DNA of 64,000 bases from Candidatus Koribacter versatilis Ellin345 (GTDB lineage: Bacteria > Acidobacteriota > Terriglobia > Terriglobales > Acidobacteriaceae). Numbering within the stretch: position 1 is the stretch's first letter; each line of letters begins with the position of its first letter. Location: assembly GCF_000014005.1 (NCBI RefSeq), contig NC_008009.1, positions 2,542,001 to 2,606,000 on the forward strand. The letters run 5' to 3'. The translations under genes were made by a program, and so were the position numbers. Below are positions 7,166 through 13,490 of the stretch, one piece after another. A model generated the notes under the pieces. The model saw only the letters and a program-made list of their open reading frames with translations, ran no database searches and was not told the DNA's origin.

Positions 7166-7193
7166 GGGCGCTCCTACGGGAGCGCCCTTTCTA
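7166..7193. terminator. Intrinsic terminator between convergent genes
   Basis: A nine-base-pair perfect stem (GGGCGCTCC at 7166-7174 with GGAGCGCCC at 7179-7187) closes a four-base loop and is followed by TTTCT. It ends the secreted-protein gene at 7149. It overlaps the last codons of the convergent minus-strand gene, so it may act in both directions. Confidence 0.85.
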
Positions 7194-7511
7194 ATGGAAA
7201 CTCAGGTTTGTCAGGATCGCGCCCCAGCACGCGACGGACAAAACCACGTTCAACGCGATGGAAAGTAAGACGCCTTTGGCCTCGCCGTGCTGACCTTTGC
7301 CGCGGTAGGAGAAGAAAAGCGGGAGCGTCCACGCCAGTTGAATGAGCGCATAAGGGACGACGATGATCAGCCCGAAGCCGACCGCAATGCCTGCGAGCCC
7401 AACTAGCGCGATGCCCGCCGAGATGGCGCAGGAAACGAGAAAGCCGCGTAGGACTCCGGAGGATTGGGAAGGGGTTGGAATGGGAGTAGGAATCGGCGGT
7501 TGAGTGCTCAT
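7191..7511 (-). CDS. Small membrane protein, last gene of the Lgt-like/Tes-like unit
   Basis: This 106-residue protein begins MSTQPPIPTPIPTPSQ, a proline-rich cytosolic-looking tail, followed by three hydrophobic segments (about 24-50, 50-66 and 82-102). The start is the ATG at 7511, whose last bases overlap the stop of the preceding gene as ATGA, so the two are translationally coupled. No family is recognised. It is the fourth gene of a unit beginning with the Lgt-like gene at 10023, and its small size and membrane location suggest an accessory subunit or a partner for lipid handling; that is inference only. The C-terminus runs into the shared terminator. Confidence 0.72.
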   Translation of the reverse strand: MSTQPPIPTPIPTPSQSSGVLRGFLVSCAISAGIALVGLAGIAVGFGLIIVVPYALIQLAWTLPLFFSYRGKGQHGEAKGVLLSIALNVVLSVACWGAILTNLSFH

Positions 7512-7819
7512 TTGATTTTTTCGAGAGATGTCGAGAAGGCCAAACCCCAGCACGGCATGAAGACGAGCGCTGCCACTGCCGCACCTACGATCCAACCGTG
7601 CATGGCTCTCCTGTAGCCGTTCTTTTTAGCACGATAAATCAAGGGACCGATATACAAGAATTGCGAGATCGGTAATGCTGCCCACAGAATCATCTCAATA
7701 CGCTCAACCGAACCGAACAAAACTCCGACCGCAATGATGTAGCCGAGGCCTGCGAGGAACGCGAAGAAAACTGGCCATCCGAAGCTGGAAGAATCGACCT
7801 GTGCAACCGTCTCAAACAC
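7508..7819 (-). CDS. Small three-helix membrane protein
   Basis: Read from the GTG at 7819 (GGAG six bases upstream), this is a 103-residue protein with three likely transmembrane helices at about 14-35, 43-63 and 76-95, with a basic loop YRAKKNGYRR between helices two and three. A TTG at 7837 in the same frame has no ribosome site. The gene starts inside the last codons of the radical SAM gene (8-base overlap) and its stop overlaps the next start by four bases, so the whole unit is co-translated. Family unknown. The tight linkage to the Tes-like enzyme points to a related membrane role. Confidence 0.72.
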   Translation of the reverse strand: MFETVAQVDSSSFGWPVFFAFLAGLGYIIAVGVLFGSVERIEMILWAALPISQFLYIGPLIYRAKKNGYRRAMHGWIVGAAVAALVFMPCWGLAFSTSLEKIK

Positions 7820-9251
7820 CCTCGGCTCCGATCTCAACGAACCTGCTCTCTTCCAACCGCCGCAAAGGCGCGAGTCGCGTCTGTTCCAACGAGTCGCGAT
7901 AGAACATGTTGTAAGTGTCGAAGGGAATCAGCCGCCCGTCTGGATGCACGATGTGCACGCAGCTCTTCTTTACCGAGCGGACGTCGAATGCATGCGCGTC
8001 AATGAACTGCATGATCAGAACGCGGAAGACATTCTGATAGCCGAGACCTGAGGGAGCATTGATGTGCGGCAGGCAGCAGAGCAGGTCGCGCAGCGTGTTC
8101 GCGCCGGATTGCGGCGAGTGGTTCGTGGAGAACAGGCGGAAGATATGGTCCTTCACCTGGTCTTCCTGTTCATACAAGATGGTGTTTCGTCCGCCATTGA
8201 TGAGCACTTGCGGGTCGATCATGCCGGTGAGGGGCGTCACCCGTCCATCGAGTTTCAGCGCATAGGCCATCGCCAGGCTATCGGGATGGCAGGGAACTGG
8301 AATTACATCCTCGGGCCGGAACACTTTCGTCTGTTCCAAAATTTTGCGCCGGACTTCCGTGAGCGTCAGACGATCGCGCGCGGGATCGAATCCTTCCGTG
8401 CGCCCCGCATCCTGCACTGGTTGAAAGGTCACACCGCGGATACACGGCTGTTCGAGCGCCCAATCAATGGTCTTGCCAATCTCATGATCGTTCAAGCCCT
8501 TCTGTAAGGTGACAACCAAGGTCGTCGAAATGCCGAGCGCATTCAATCGTTCGACAGCCTTCTGGCGAATAGAGCGCAAATCCGCGCCCCGAAGTATCAT
8601 TAGCGGCTCGCGCTCGAAGCTGTCGAACTGCAGATACAGTTCGAAGTCCGGCATGTACGTAGCGAGTCGCTCGGCAAAGGCCTCATCCTGCGCGATGCGA
8701 ATACCGTTGGTATTCACCATCAGGTGTCGAATGGGGCGCGCCTTCGCGAGGTCGAGCACTTCAAAGAACTGCGGGTGAATGGTCGGCTCACCGCCGGATA
8801 TCTGCACGACGTCAGGATGTAGTTCGTTTCGAACCACGGCATCGAGCATCTTCTCAATCTGCGCCAGTGAACGGTAGCTCTGCCGCGACGGCCCGCTCTC
8901 TGCATAACAGATGGGGCAGCTCAGGTTGCAGTGGTCGCATATCTCGATGAGCGACAGGCAGGAGTGCTGTTCGTGATCGGAGCAAAGCCCGCAATCATAC
9001 GGGCATCCCCACTTCACAGGAGTGTTGTAAACCGCCGGCATCTCTGGAGGCTTGATGAAGACTTCGCGGCAACGGCGGTAATAATCAACGTCGTCCGCGA
9101 TCAGTACTTTCTCATTGCCGTGCACCGGGCAACGCTTCAGCAGATAGACACTGTCGTCGAGAAAGACGATCTTCGCATCAATCTTGCGATAGCAGCGAGC
9201 GCAGATCGAAACGGCGACGTCGTAGAAAATGTAAGGACGCGTCTTCGGCAA
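7812..9251 (-). CDS. Radical SAM enzyme of the tetraether-lipid-synthase (Tes) type
   Basis: From the TTG at 9251 (AGGAG six bases upstream; another TTG at 9275 lacks one) the protein has 479 residues. Its layout matches archaeal Tes (MJ0619 type), which joins lipid tails through C-C bonds. There is a rubredoxin-like N-terminal set (CARC at about 17-20, then C41 in a CPVHG turn). A second cysteine group follows, GCPYDCGLC at about 82-90. Then comes the radical SAM cluster CNLSCPIC at about 108-115, with GGEP for SAM binding near 154. Later cysteines include CC in LLCCLPH and C in KKSCVHI, followed by PDGRLIPF, typical of the family's C-terminus. The start is one base after the Lgt-like stop, so translation is coupled. 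The family resemblance is strong, but the product (tetraether, iso-diabolic acid or other coupling) is inference. Other radical SAM enzymes with extra clusters remain possible. Confidence 0.82.
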   Translation of the reverse strand: MPKTRPYIFYDVAVSICARCYRKIDAKIVFLDDSVYLLKRCPVHGNEKVLIADDVDYYRRCREVFIKPPEMPAVYNTPVKWGCPYDCGLCSDHEQHSCLSLIEICDHCNLSCPICYAESGPSRQSYRSLAQIEKMLDAVVRNELHPDVVQISGGEPTIHPQFFEVLDLAKARPIRHLMVNTNGIRIAQDEAFAERLATYMPDFELYLQFDSFEREPLMILRGADLRSIRQKAVERLNALGISTTLVVTLQKGLNDHEIGKTIDWALEQPCIRGVTFQPVQDAGRTEGFDPARDRLTLTEVRRKILEQTKVFRPEDVIPVPCHPDSLAMAYALKLDGRVTPLTGMIDPQVLINGGRNTILYEQEDQVKDHIFRLFSTNHSPQSGANTLRDLLCCLPHINAPSGLGYQNVFRVLIMQFIDAHAFDVRSVKKSCVHIVHPDGRLIPFDTYNMFYRDSLEQTRLAPLRRLEESRFVEIGAEGV

Positions 9252-9252
9252 T

Positions 9253-10023
9253 TCAATCTCCTGTGGCGACGGCAAGCTTGGGATCGCGGCGCCGCAGCCA
9301 GCGCCAGATATCGGGAAGGTAGAACAATATCACCCCGACGCAAGCCCACTGAATCGCGGTAATGCCGAGCACAAGCGGCTCGCGGTCTTTTAGAAACTCG
9401 GTCGCAAATCGCCACCCCATGTACGTGCACATAAACATCTTGAAGACATCGCCATTTGCGTGCGGTCGGTTGAGCACACGCCACAGCAACGCAGAGAGCG
9501 CAAGCAGGAAGACAATCTCATAGAGCGGCAGCGGATGCCGCCGGGCGCCATCGCCGAAGTCCATCGCCCACGGCAGGGAAGACGCCGCACCGAACGTATG
9601 GTCGCCCGGACCGGTGAGAAAGCATCCGACGCGTCCAATCGCTATGCCAATACAAAGCGGCAGGACGAATAGATCCCCAGTGCGCTCGCGTTCGCCGAGC
9701 TTCTTCTTGCAGAACTCCACAGCGATCCAACCGCCAATTAGTCCGCCGACGATCGTCTTTCCGTTCAGCAACACAAACGGTTCGCGCCAGTGCGTAATGA
9801 GGTAGCTGGGCTCTTCGAGTACCGAAAGCAACTTGCTACCGGCCGCAGCGCCGAGAGCGGCAGCCGTGATCACCCACCAGCGGATGTCCTCGTGTACCAC
9901 ATCGCCGCGCGTGCGCCGCAGATGAAGATAGATACGAAATCCAACGAAGTAAGCCAGCGCTTCAAAGATCAGGTGTGCGGGTAGATGCAGCGGCCCGAGC
10001 GGCAGGTAGAAGGGGAAGTGCAT
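9253..10023 (-). CDS. Prolipoprotein diacylglyceryl transferase (Lgt)-like membrane protein, divergent
   Basis: This 256-residue polytopic protein has about seven hydrophobic segments. It resembles Lgt, which moves diacylglycerol from phosphatidylglycerol to lipoprotein cysteine. Lgt-like features are KTIVGGLIGG near 89-98, GRVGCFLTG near 129-137 (Lgt has GRxGNFxNxE), RHPLPLYE near 159-166, and GWRFATEFLKD near 205. The His of the Lgt HGGLIG motif is replaced (TIVGGLIG) and the NFxNxE part is changed, so it may not be the housekeeping Lgt. It opens the unit with the Tes-like enzyme, suggesting it handles a glycerol or diacylglycerol moiety of phospholipids instead. A terminator for the upstream receptor gene separates it from that gene. 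Confidence 0.72.
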   Translation of the reverse strand: MHFPFYLPLGPLHLPAHLIFEALAYFVGFRIYLHLRRTRGDVVHEDIRWWVITAAALGAAAGSKLLSVLEEPSYLITHWREPFVLLNGKTIVGGLIGGWIAVEFCKKKLGERERTGDLFVLPLCIGIAIGRVGCFLTGPGDHTFGAASSLPWAMDFGDGARRHPLPLYEIVFLLALSALLWRVLNRPHANGDVFKMFMCTYMGWRFATEFLKDREPLVLGITAIQWACVGVILFYLPDIWRWLRRRDPKLAVATGD

Positions 10024-10064: not shown

Positions 10065-10098
10065 AAAAAATGGGCGCCGGTTTGGCCGGCGCCCAAAA
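10065..10098 (-). terminator. Intrinsic terminator of the TonB receptor gene
   Basis: A nine-base-pair GC stem (10072-10080 with 10086-10094, five-base loop) is followed on the minus strand by TTTTTT (10070-10065). It lies 18 bases past the receptor stop and before the Lgt-like start, so the lipid unit needs its own promoter in the short gap 10024-10064. Confidence 0.88.
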
Positions 10099-10115: not shown

Positions 10116-13100
10116 TTAGAAGGTCAACTTCAGGGCAAGCTGTAGCTGCCGAGGATCGCGTGCGGACAGTATCTGTCCGAAGAGCGAGCTCGTCGCACTG
10201 ACGTTGGGAGCGTTGAAGTTCGTGTGGTTGAGCACGTTGAAAGCTTCCGCACGGAACTGCAAGTTCAAGCGTTCGGTGAACTTGATGTTCTTGAACAGCG
10301 AAGCATCCCAACGGAAGTAGCCCGGCCCCACGATGACGCCGCGCGGCTCGTTACCCACACGGACGTCGCCGGCTGGCACGAGCGCAAACGCTGAGGTATT
10401 GAACCACTTGTCGAGATGGTTCGGTGCGCCCTGCTGAGGGTTGCCAATGAGGTCGGGGCGCCCGCCCTCGAAGGTGTTCGGATCACGCAAGCCGAGGCCG
10501 CCGGGATCGCGCGATGCGCTCGCGGTGTAGTGCGCCCCGCTATACGCATAGAACAATCCGGAGACTTCCCAACCGCCGAGCACGTGTCCCGCAACCCCCT
10601 GCTGGTGCTTGAAGAACGGCAGGTCGTACACATAGTTGGCGGTGAACATGTTGCGACGGTCGTAGTCGAGGTTGCCGTATTCCGCGCCAATATCCATGGA
10701 ATACTGCGGCGCACGGTAGTCGCTCGAAGCTGTGCCCAGAGCGTGCGACCAGGTGTAGTTCAGCACGATCATCGAATTCTCGGTGAAGTGCTTGGTGAAC
10801 GACGTCTGCAGGCCGTTGTAGCTCGACGTAAATACCGGCGAGAACAAGTCGATTGACGCATAGCCCTGGTACGGACGGATCTGATTGAGCTTCTGCGTGT
10901 CACCGGAACTGACCGGCCCCGGAATGCCGAGGGCTTGGAAGCCGCCGAGTGGCGCTTGGTTTACGTCTACAACGCCAATAAGATGGCGTCCCGCGTTGCC
11001 GTAGTAGCCAATGTCGAAGATGGTGGACGGCGTGAACTGGTGCTGCACGTCCAGGCTCCACATCATCGTGTACGGCTGCTTCCAGTTAGGAGCGATGCCG
11101 CCAATGTCGGGAGGTGACAGGTTTGGCGCCGCCTGTACTGAACCCGGATTGTCGAAATTGGTGTTCGAAATTGAGGTCGAAGTAACGAACGGCGGATTTC
11201 CCGGCTGGAACTGTTCCATGCTGTTCACGGCAGGTGAATCGAAGAACAGTCCGAATCCGCCGCGGATAGAAGTCGTGCCGGTATGCGTCGGGTCCCATGC
11301 AAACCCTAAGCGCGGCGCGAAGTTGAGTTTCGGCGTGCGGTTCACGGCATCGCCATACGGAGAATCCTTGCCGCCGATCAGGATGCCATTGGTATACGGC
11401 GCAGATGGCACGGCCGCGTAAAGACCGTTGCTGTCGATCGCGGGCGTGTTGGTGGAATCGAACTTCGACGGATCGAAGGTCGTAAGCAGGCCGTTGCCGT
11501 AGGTGGGCGCCTGGAAGAGCGAGTAGCGCACGCCGTAGCTGAGTGTGAAGTACGGTGTGAGACGCCACTCATCCTGACCAAAGAATTCCCACTGGTGCTG
11601 ATGTACCAGCGCGCGGAAGTCAATGTTTGTCTGGTTGAACGACGACACGTTGCCGTTGAGGAAGTTCGCCCACTCCTGATCGGTGCTGCCGGTGTCGGAG
11701 CAGGGATACGGGCTGGTGACGGTAGCACTGCTATCCACGCAATCCGCGAACGTGTAGGAGCCCGATTGCAGCCCGTAGCCATTCACGTTCTCGTCCTTGG
11801 TGTAGTAGTTGAAGGTCCCGCCGAATTTCAGCGAGTGCTTTCCAATCACCTTCGTCAACGTAGCGAACGCGTTGTGGTTGTAGTTGTAGTCGTTGTATGG
11901 ACCGAATCCGGCGAGCCCCTGCGTGGAATTGAAGAATCCGATGCCCGGAAGCAGCGGACCGAGTCCGAAGGGAAGCGTCGGATTCACATCCGGCGAATTC
12001 GCTGAGGCCATGGTTCCCGCCGGCGAACTGATGACCGCGCCATACGAGTACGCATAGCCCATGTCCGCCAGCGTCGTGGGCGAGAACGCAATCGTCGCGT
12101 GAATCGAGGCGTTGCGTCCGGGAGCATTCGTGTTGGTCACAGCAACGCCAGGAACGGCGAGACCGGTAAACAGACCGCCAGGCTCCTGCGTTGGGATCTG
12201 GTCGTCGAGGTAGCGTCCGAAGATGCTGAACTTGGACGAGAAATTGTGGTCAACGCGAACGTTCTCTTCGCGATAGTTGAACTGGTTGCGTCCTACCCAG
12301 GTGAGCGTTCCGTCAGCATTGTTGGGCGCTGGGAACTTTGAATAGATGTCGTTGATGTATGCCTGCGCCGTGGGACTAATCGTGGAGACATGATTGCCCA
12401 ACGCTGCGCACGTCCCATCGGGATTCAAAGCGACGCAAATCGTGCTTCCGAAATCGCCTCCGAGGTTTGCCGACGTGGGCAGCACGCCGCTGGTGAACGT
12501 GTTGTAGGTGATGATCTTTCGCCACTCTTGCGAATAGAAGAAGAACGTCTTGTTCTTTTCCGTGTTGTAGTGGCCGGGAATGTAGATCGGTCCGCCGATG
12601 GTGAAGCCAAAGTCGTTCCAACGCATCGCGGGGCGTTCAACGTCGGCACGATTATTGAAGAAGTTGTTGGCGTTCAGCACATCGTTTCGGAAGAACTCGT
12701 ACGCGCTGCCGTGGAAGGCGCTGGTGCCGGAACGCGTGATGACGTTGACCTGTCCGCCTGAGCTGCGTCCTTGTTCCGGCATGTAGTTCGAGCGCAGGAC
12801 GTTGAACTCCTGGATCGAATCCACGCTCGGATAGGCGAGCAGCGTCAGGTTGGCGCCGCGGTCCACGTTGTCGGAACCGTCGATCTGCCAGTTGTTCTGC
12901 GTTGGACGGGTGCCATTAATCGAAAAGTTGATCTGGTTTGAGGTGCCGACCGGATTGCTTACGCCGACGAACAGCTGATCGGAAGCGAGGTTCGTCGAAA
13001 CGCCGGGAAGGGCTGCAACCAACTGCTCGTAATTACGCGTGACGAGTGTGAGCTGCCGCACCTGGTTGCCGGTGATCACGCCTTGGGCAGTCGCGTTGTC

Positions 13101-13490
13101 GAGATTCACCTGGCTGGGATTCTCGTTGACCGTTACGGTCTGGCCGCTAGAGCCGACCTGGAGCGTTTCATCCACCGTAAGGCGATCATGCACGTTCAAG
13201 ACCACATTGTTGGTCTCAGCTGCCTTGAAGCCTTCCTTCTTGACCGAGACCTTGTAATGACCGACGGGTAGGTAAGCGGCAACGTAATTGCCGTTGGTAT
13301 CGGTCGTGACGGTACGAATTGTCGTGTTGCGATCAGTGTTGGTTACCTCAACGGTGGCTCCGGCGACGAGTGCGCCCGAAGCATCTTTCACAATTCCGCG
13401 GATGTCGCCCGTAATCTCCTGGGCGAACAGACTTCCCGCACACAAGCAACCAAGTAACAACGCGCCCAGGCGAAGCCGCCAATGGCTCAT
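10116..13490 (-). CDS. TonB-dependent receptor, Oar-like, with carboxypeptidase-regulatory domain
   Basis: The 1,124-residue outer-membrane protein starts at ATG 13490 with GGGAGG seven bases upstream. It has a signal peptide (about 1-23, ending SLFAQ). A carboxypeptidase-regulatory-like beta-sandwich follows at about 27-105 (GIVKDASGALVAGATV... TDTNGNY). A plug domain lies at about 125-240 (QLTLVTRNYEQL..., SINGTRPTQNNWQIDG), then a long beta-barrel ending in an aromatic residue (KLTF). This is the Oar-like class abundant in Acidobacteria, usually linked to uptake of large or complex substrates; the ligand cannot be read from sequence. No TonB or ExbBD gene is near. It is transcribed alone, bounded by its own terminator. 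Confidence 0.93.
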   Translation of the reverse strand: MSHWRLRLGALLLGCLCAGSLFAQEITGDIRGIVKDASGALVAGATVEVTNTDRNTTIRTVTTDTNGNYVAAYLPVGHYKVSVKKEGFKAAETNNVVLNVHDRLTVDETLQVGSSGQTVTVNENPSQVNLDNATAQGVITGNQVRQLTLVTRNYEQLVAALPGVSTNLASDQLFVGVSNPVGTSNQINFSINGTRPTQNNWQIDGSDNVDRGANLTLLAYPSVDSIQEFNVLRSNYMPEQGRSSGGQVNVITRSGTSAFHGSAYEFFRNDVLNANNFFNNRADVERPAMRWNDFGFTIGGPIYIPGHYNTEKNKTFFFYSQEWRKIITYNTFTSGVLPTSANLGGDFGSTICVALNPDGTCAALGNHVSTISPTAQAYINDIYSKFPAPNNADGTLTWVGRNQFNYREENVRVDHNFSSKFSIFGRYLDDQIPTQEPGGLFTGLAVPGVAVTNTNAPGRNASIHATIAFSPTTLADMGYAYSYGAVISSPAGTMASANSPDVNPTLPFGLGPLLPGIGFFNSTQGLAGFGPYNDYNYNHNAFATLTKVIGKHSLKFGGTFNYYTKDENVNGYGLQSGSYTFADCVDSSATVTSPYPCSDTGSTDQEWANFLNGNVSSFNQTNIDFRALVHQHQWEFFGQDEWRLTPYFTLSYGVRYSLFQAPTYGNGLLTTFDPSKFDSTNTPAIDSNGLYAAVPSAPYTNGILIGGKDSPYGDAVNRTPKLNFAPRLGFAWDPTHTGTTSIRGGFGLFFDSPAVNSMEQFQPGNPPFVTSTSISNTNFDNPGSVQAAPNLSPPDIGGIAPNWKQPYTMMWSLDVQHQFTPSTIFDIGYYGNAGRHLIGVVDVNQAPLGGFQALGIPGPVSSGDTQKLNQIRPYQGYASIDLFSPVFTSSYNGLQTSFTKHFTENSMIVLNYTWSHALGTASSDYRAPQYSMDIGAEYGNLDYDRRNMFTANYVYDLPFFKHQQGVAGHVLGGWEVSGLFYAYSGAHYTASASRDPGGLGLRDPNTFEGGRPDLIGNPQQGAPNHLDKWFNTSAFALVPAGDVRVGNEPRGVIVGPGYFRWDASLFKNIKFTERLNLQFRAEAFNVLNHTNFNAPNVSATSSLFGQILSARDPRQLQLALKLTF

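Follow-up and report, generated by a model that had tools for sequence, protein, structure and literature searches.

A conserved module of an Lgt-like protein, a Tes-fold radical SAM protein and small membrane proteins in Candidatus Koribacter versatilis Ellin345 and other phyla

The stretch of DNA analyzed here (the window) comprises 64,000 nucleotides of Candidatus Koribacter versatilis Ellin345 (assembly GCF_000014005.1, contig NC_008009.1, positions 2,542,001 to 2,606,000) and carries, at 10023-7191 on its minus strand, four genes that overlap or lie one base apart, an arrangement reported in a preliminary description of the DNA and confirmed from the coordinates of the open reading frames (ORFs). 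By comparing genomes, we show this unit to be one copy of a dedicated, co-inherited module consisting of an Lgt-like protein, a radical S-adenosylmethionine (SAM) protein with the fold of the archaeal tetraether synthase Tes and, in most cases, between one and three small membrane proteins. The conserved three-part module has apparently not been described so far. Both enzymes belong to known fold families but, on their profile scores, stand outside the named Tes and the named Lgt equivalogs. The radical SAM reading frame begins one base beyond the Lgt-like stop codon (9253), or possibly at an upstream TTG at 9275, which would give a protein of 487 residues, and its end overlaps the start of the first small gene by 8 bases. 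The unit reads as follows (window positions):

9253 to 10023, minus strand: Lgt-like integral membrane protein, 256 residues, ATG start (Pfam LGT; structure model against 5azb)
7812 to 9251, minus strand: radical SAM enzyme of Tes fold, 479 residues, TTG start at 9251 (profiles, PDB match and model)
7508 to 7819, minus strand: small membrane protein 1, 103 residues, GTG start at 7819 within the radical SAM gene (ORF and small-protein profile)
7191 to 7511, minus strand: small membrane protein 2, 106 residues, overlapping small protein 1 by ATGA at 7511-7508 (ORF and small-protein profile)
7550 to 7552, minus strand: codon of Cys90 of small protein 1 (FMPCWG), a conserved position (small-protein alignment)
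7227 to 7229, minus strand: codon of Cys95 of small protein 2 (SVACWG), a conserved position (small-protein alignment)

The cross-phylum comparison covers the best 80 of at least 556 confirmed relatives obtained by scanning genome contigs with patterns from alignment A1. All 80 loci contain a radical SAM orthologue at 59-78% identity, and by record title they are distributed over Acidobacteriota (11), Bacillota (17), Bacteroidota (28), Pseudomonadota (12), Cyanobacteriota/Melainabacteria (4), Planctomycetota (4) and others (4); one locus is labelled archaeal and may be a binning error. Of the families obtained by grouping the ORFs of these loci, two alone are widespread: that of the radical SAM protein (77 loci) and that of the Lgt-like protein (58 loci, with crude ORF calling). 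Next come a small-protein family (13 loci) and, slightly larger, an ABC-transporter-like family named by eye (14 loci). The Lgt-like gene was found by tblastn in 73 of the 80 loci. In 69 of these it precedes the radical SAM gene on the same strand by at most 2 kb; it lies directly downstream in L062, and 2-4 kb away in L063, L084 and L109. On the Lgt-like profile, none of the 73 encoded proteins falls below 178 bits, while the other LGT protein of the window's genome reaches 87.7. Pairwise distances between radical SAM proteins correlate with those between Lgt-like proteins (r 0.83 over 59 pairs; highest of 2000 permutations 0.19), partly owing to the shared descent of the host genomes.

The two genes also travel together within the phylum of the host. 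Orthologues of the window protein (at least 62% identity) occur in 18 of 297 Acidobacteriota genomes, a count that includes a broken copy (G084) and a match starting at residue 59 (G233) and leaves a short fragment in G167 uncounted. The Lgt-like profile likewise singles out 18 genomes at 272-377 bits; the next scores, 177.6 and 123.9, lie beside distant radical SAM relatives (L023, L031), and all others are 104 or lower. Both genes are present in 17 genomes, the radical SAM gene only in one, the Lgt-like gene only in one and neither in 278 (Fisher 1.7e-25). Among the 17, the genes of G051 are ~2.5 kb apart, and in G084 both are broken and the scored Lgt-like piece lies on another contig. The contig of the Lgt-only genome (G015) ends right after the Lgt-like gene; in the radical-SAM-only genome (G233), no Lgt-like gene lies within 12 kb.

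The cysteine layout that the preliminary description gave for the radical SAM protein was borne out residue by residue: C17xxC20..C41xxH44, C83x3C87xxC90 and the radical SAM motif C108x3C112xxC115, with C321, C392, C393 and C431 further on and then CVHIVHPDGRLIPF. Pfam recognizes a radical SAM core and an HMPTM zinc ribbon, the latter matched among 14 control genomes only in three archaea; the Pfam matches include no SPASM or peptide-recognition domain. A PDB sequence search retrieved 7tol (GDGT-MAS; E 8e-68) as a match in two pieces, leaving residues 324-400 unaligned. The AlphaFold model, built from 20 sequences, has a mean predicted local distance difference test score (pLDDT) of 82.6, with residues 353-401 under 50, and superimposes on 7tom with Z 43.6 and a root-mean-square deviation of 2.4 over 409 residues (Foldseek E 2.7e-36). 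In this structure comparison, of the kind suggested in the preliminary description, other folds come far below (MoaA Z 19.9, SuiB 19.6, SkfB 18.9). A match to prokaryotic viperin models in PADLOC involved the radical SAM core only, and a defence-system reading was rejected.

Judged by these comparisons and by family profiles, the window protein has the Tes fold but is not Tes, and belongs to a clade of its own. It scores 268.4 bits against the NCBIfam Tes model (NF045702; curated cut-off 450) and 308.6 bits, its best NCBIfam score, against TrsS (NF045646; curated cut-off 490). Five orthologues are likewise under both cut-offs (266.8-297.1 bits for Tes, 306.3-332.4 for TrsS), while L027, from the same phylum, lies above the TrsS cut-off at 549.8 bits. 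TrsS aligns over most of the length of the window protein, but L027 is found elsewhere in the tree and the window gene has no in-frame TGA. In that tree (109 rows), a branch with support 99 separates the 95 orthologues from all other rows, and four rows labelled Tes-like stand apart with support 100. Rows labelled TrsS-like fall in two places; of the rows carrying either label, L001 and L027 alone are shown to exceed a family cut-off. The tree contains several long branches, and where they meet two distant Lgt-linked relatives find no firm grouping.

Residue conservation was counted in the 95 orthologues, two of which (L061 and L014) are identical in sequence. The whole fold and three metal sites are held in common with archaeal Tes/GDGT-MAS (MJ0619; 7tol, 7tom; NF045702): the rubredoxin-type CxxC..CxxH site (C17, C20 and C41 in 95/95, H44 in 94/95), the N-terminal CX3CX2C auxiliary site with its His, formed in Tes by C73, C77, C80 and a His (C83, C87, C90, H93 and H96, all in 95/95), and the radical SAM CX3CX2C motif (C108, C112 and C115, 95/95). 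The two proteins differ at the C-terminal cluster site. There, C455 and C470 of Tes are presumed from conservation to be ligands, together with HPHC; passages on GDGT-MAS name only Met439 for this site. The equivalent of C455 is Ser in 80 orthologues, Thr in 14 and Ala in one, that of C470 is Asp in 61 and Glu in 34, and that of the labile Met439 is Met in 72, Val in 21 and Ile in two; the equivalent of Tyr459 is mostly Ile. The C-terminal site is changed in the window protein, which has lost both presumed ligand cysteines and has a new CC pair at 392-393. Other cysteines are kept (C321 in 94/95, C392 in 93/95, C431 in 95/95); in the orthologue L010 (G094), Arg replaces Cys321. Unlike the gene for Tes, the window gene is linked to Lgt-like and small membrane protein genes. 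The earlier designation as a Tes-like enzyme therefore stands for the fold and the first three metal sites, and fails for Tes as such, given the score well under the cut-off and the loss of two C-terminal cysteines.

Lgt takes a diacylglyceryl group from phosphatidylglycerol and passes it on to a cysteine at the outer face of the membrane. The first protein of the unit had been called Lgt-like, and rightly so: it scores 93.9 bits against Pfam LGT (gathering cut-off 24.9), and its model matches E. coli Lgt (5azb) with E 1.7e-7 and a TM score of 0.64, the sole Foldseek match under E 0.001. The model may be taken to support the fold only. Against the NCBIfam Lgt equivalog (TIGR00544), the protein has 43.5 bits for a cut-off of 118.9; its best score against any other model is 54 for a cut-off of 334. 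Fold, Pfam domain and the GRxG and HP..YE motifs are shared with Lgt, but the family has invariant residues of its own (E103, K106, K212 and, nearly, K89) and its gene has no lipoprotein gene context. The other LGT protein of the genome (L114) scores better, at 198.4 bits, and has C134 in common with the unit's protein. The absence of the His and the Asn of E. coli Lgt was considered as proof of a new function and rejected, since L114 lacks them too.

The small membrane proteins 1 and 2 match no Pfam or NCBIfam family at its cut-off, as had been expected of them as new components, but relatives do exist in other phyla. With a profile built from 14 Bacillota and Cyanobacteriota loci alone, the two window proteins head the ranking of 927 six-frame segments, at E 4e-9 and 5e-6, the next segment having 0.13. 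In 53 of the 80 loci, the radical SAM gene has behind it a chained ORF of 50-180 residues with at least two predicted helices. The same holds for 13 of 378 control ORFs, which were crudely chosen as the longest and some of which may not be genes. The downstream small proteins are short, with two or three helices; they occur in tandem and diverge fast, keeping little but a Gln, a Pro and a Cys, and their N-terminal parts are variable and in some cases zinc-finger-like. Q58, P64 and C95 (numbering of small protein 2) never vary in a chosen set of 18 small proteins drawn from Acidobacteriota, Bacillota and Cyanobacteriota. The profile of these 18, which contains some of the sequences it matches and misses the units of other genomes, whose small proteins differ, hit nine places in six of the 297 genomes, eight of them in units and one weak. 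Within its own genome, small protein 2 matched only itself, and no paralogue was found elsewhere.

The conserved cysteine lies close to the C-terminus. It falls within the last 20 residues in 62 of 69 downstream small proteins: 4/5 in Acidobacteriota, 13/13 in Bacillota, 36/38 in Bacteroidota, 3/5 in Pseudomonadota, 3/3 in Cyanobacteriota/Melainabacteria, 0/1 in Planctomycetota and 3/4 in others. Cysteine makes up 69 of the 1380 residues in these last segments (5.0%) and 55 of 5061 elsewhere (1.1%). With the proteins between the two enzymes included, the last helix or the five residues beyond it contain a Cys in 67 of 81 unit proteins and in 4 of 13 controls. As many small proteins are related, p-values for them overstate independence; permissive BLAST placed 67 of the 69 in one group, which makes independent family counts by this means impossible. 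At position -2 to the cysteine, 56 of 62 have Gly, Ala or Ser, which may somewhat resemble a lipobox. Lys and Arg number 188 ahead of the last helix of the downstream proteins and 24 beyond it, which predicts an outside location for the cysteine end.

These observations suggest, tentatively and short of a probability, that the Lgt-like protein uses the small-protein cysteine as acceptor and that the Tes-like enzyme carries out radical chemistry on the lipid. The small membrane proteins would be acceptors or carriers, and the Lgt-like enzyme would attach a lipid to their outer-end cysteine or work on an adjacent lipid. Use of this cysteine is the simplest role for the Lgt-like protein, because Lgt acts on an outer-face cysteine and the conserved one is predicted there, at the end of an in-to-out helix. 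In the account of Tes given in PMC9433317, a radical is made on the tail and a bond to a sulfur of a cluster is formed ahead of C-C coupling, and action on a lipid tail is for this reason the simplest role for the Tes-like enzyme. Working from the cytosol, it might generate a lipid-tail radical and form a C-C or C-S bond by means of a C-terminal Fe-S site rebuilt from C321, C392 and C431, and the product would be a small membrane protein bearing a radical-modified lipid. A fuller version, which we regard as on the unlikely side, is a widespread post-translational lipidation system in which the Lgt paralogue lipidates the cysteine at the outer helix end without a signal peptidase and the Tes-type enzyme, with its re-ligated auxiliary cluster, couples the attached tail to a second lipid or to the protein itself, so that a lipid-protein conjugate arises by radical chemistry.

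Several observations weigh against an explanation of this kind. The cysteine is predicted outside and a radical SAM enzyme is expected inside, so the enzyme cannot simply act on it. The small proteins of Acidobacteriaceae sit between the two enzymes and mostly have no C-terminal Cys, some having a Cys in the first helix. A scan for small proteins next to the enzyme pair was empty in 23 of the 80 loci; in four of these (L043, L066, L081, L100) the contig ends 300 bases or less from the radical SAM gene, two from Paenibacillus (L078, L085) have a zinc-finger-like protein with a TICGA-type end just upstream of the Lgt-like gene, and L037 has a protein with a late Cys upstream of that gene. The Lgt-like gene escaped detection by tblastn in 7 of the 80 loci, four with at least 5 kb of upstream sequence (L042, L055, L081, L102) and three with less than 500 bases (L046, L074, L086). 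Two of these, from Shewanella and a betaproteobacterium (L102:8469-10192, L086:1947-3640), have the orthologue followed by DUF547 and methyltransferase-like genes; DUF547 was assigned by Pfam in L102 and to L086 by grouping with it, and the methyltransferase-like genes were named by eye.

Two other readings were considered. The enzymes might act on lipids only, the Tes-like protein joining or modifying phospholipid tails and the Lgt-like protein supplying or reshuffling glycerol lipids, with the small proteins as scaffold or electron-transfer subunits whose cysteine is structural or redox-active. This possibility is somewhat doubtful: the Tes and Lgt folds both come from lipid enzymes, density in the Tes pocket was interpreted as phosphatidic acid in passages of PMC9433317, and some loci have no small protein that was found, but tandem, fast-diverging proteins that keep little besides Gln, Pro and Cys resemble substrates or carriers more than a single invariable subunit, and we are aware of no lipid trait that matches the distribution of the unit. 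Direct maturation of the small proteins by the radical SAM enzyme through a cross-link or thioether, with the Lgt-like protein anchoring or shielding the product, appears improbable. The one to three tandem small proteins behind the radical SAM gene, their variable and partly zinc-finger-like N-terminal parts and the single conserved Cys would suit a peptide substrate; the lack of a SPASM or peptide-recognition domain among the Pfam matches, the poorer fold matches of the peptide maturases SuiB and SkfB relative to Tes and the predicted outer position of the Cys do not.

The preliminary description had tied the unit to iso-diabolic acid and branched tetraethers of Acidobacteria, through coupling of fatty-acid tails by the radical SAM enzyme. 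In favour are the Tes-type fold, the proposal of bacterial Tes homologues for such lipids (passages of PMC8941075 and PMC10087280) and the iso-diabolic tetraesters made by the acidobacterium believed to be the host (a passage of PMC13274423). The window's genome encodes three zinc-ribbon proteins. Another of them, L001 (L137:15567-17252), exceeds the Tes cut-off with 585.6 bits, aligns with GDGT-MAS in a single stretch (485 bits) and retains HPHC, RCVIHY and PFC; the window protein was rejected as this organism's Tes. L001 may be the Koribacter homologue of 42% identity mentioned in PMC8941075. The third, L003 (L137:2523-4697; 980510-982441 of the genome; ~700 residues), scores 316.6 bits for Tes, below the cut-off, and has no N-terminal auxiliary cysteines. 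Its relatives (E at most 1e-100) occur in 144 of the 297 genomes of the phylum. Within the window's own family, all 31 genomes have one, whereas the window gene is found in 5 of the 31. According to passages of PMC13274423, 17 cultures of subdivisions 1 and 3 contain abundant iso-diabolic acid; if the window's family is subdivision 1, as we presume, the window gene cannot be needed for this lipid. Orthologues at 59-78% identity in Bacillota, Bacteroidota, Pseudomonadota, Cyanobacteriota and other phyla also leave the proposed link unsupported and, with the altered C-terminal cluster site, make it very improbable. The distribution reported for iso-diabolic acid is matched more closely by L003 than by the window gene. 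Some 13 kb separate the start of L001 from L003, an interval that encodes a VKOR-thioredoxin-rhodanese fusion, a methyltransferase and a di-haem oxidoreductase family protein.

The unit of Lgt-like, Tes-like and small proteins was not found described in the open-licence papers that the literature searches listed or in passages of PMC8941075, PMC11868695, PMC13274423, PMC10087280, PMC9433317, PMC13188914 and PMC8939145. Passages of two of these propose bacterial Tes homologues as makers of branched tetraethers and count them in surveys (PMC8941075, PMC11868695). As the clade is a different, self-contained system with its own partners, surveys by 'Tes homologue' need to split it off. Strains of Paenibacillus, Mucilaginibacter and Flavobacteriaceae carry the module, and its presence in culturable strains offers test cases for other chemistry by Tes-type radical enzymes and for the question of whether Lgt-type enzymes act on cysteines besides the lipoprotein one.

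A distant radical SAM relative in L121 (G193 contig 448) has one in-frame TGA and a different gene order: radical SAM, an ICMT/PEMT-family protein, DUF4395, Lgt-like and three small membrane proteins, two of which end in SSCGW. In the window, the unit is bordered by two candidate stem-loops:

7166 to 7187, minus strand: inverted repeat GGGCGCTCC/GGAGCGCCC directly after the last stop codon, a possible unit end, without a T run (found by reading)
10071 to 10095, minus strand: terminator-like stem-loop separating the unit from an upstream outer-membrane-receptor-like gene (stem-loop scan)

The repeat at 7166-7187 is absent from the list of the stem-loop scan, which gave five terminator-like sites in the region (3.0 expected from shuffles), the one at 10071-10095 having the longest stem. 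The ORF ending just upstream of the unit (10116-13490, minus strand) has 1124 residues and looks, by eye, like an outer-membrane receptor of the carboxypeptidase-regulatory type.

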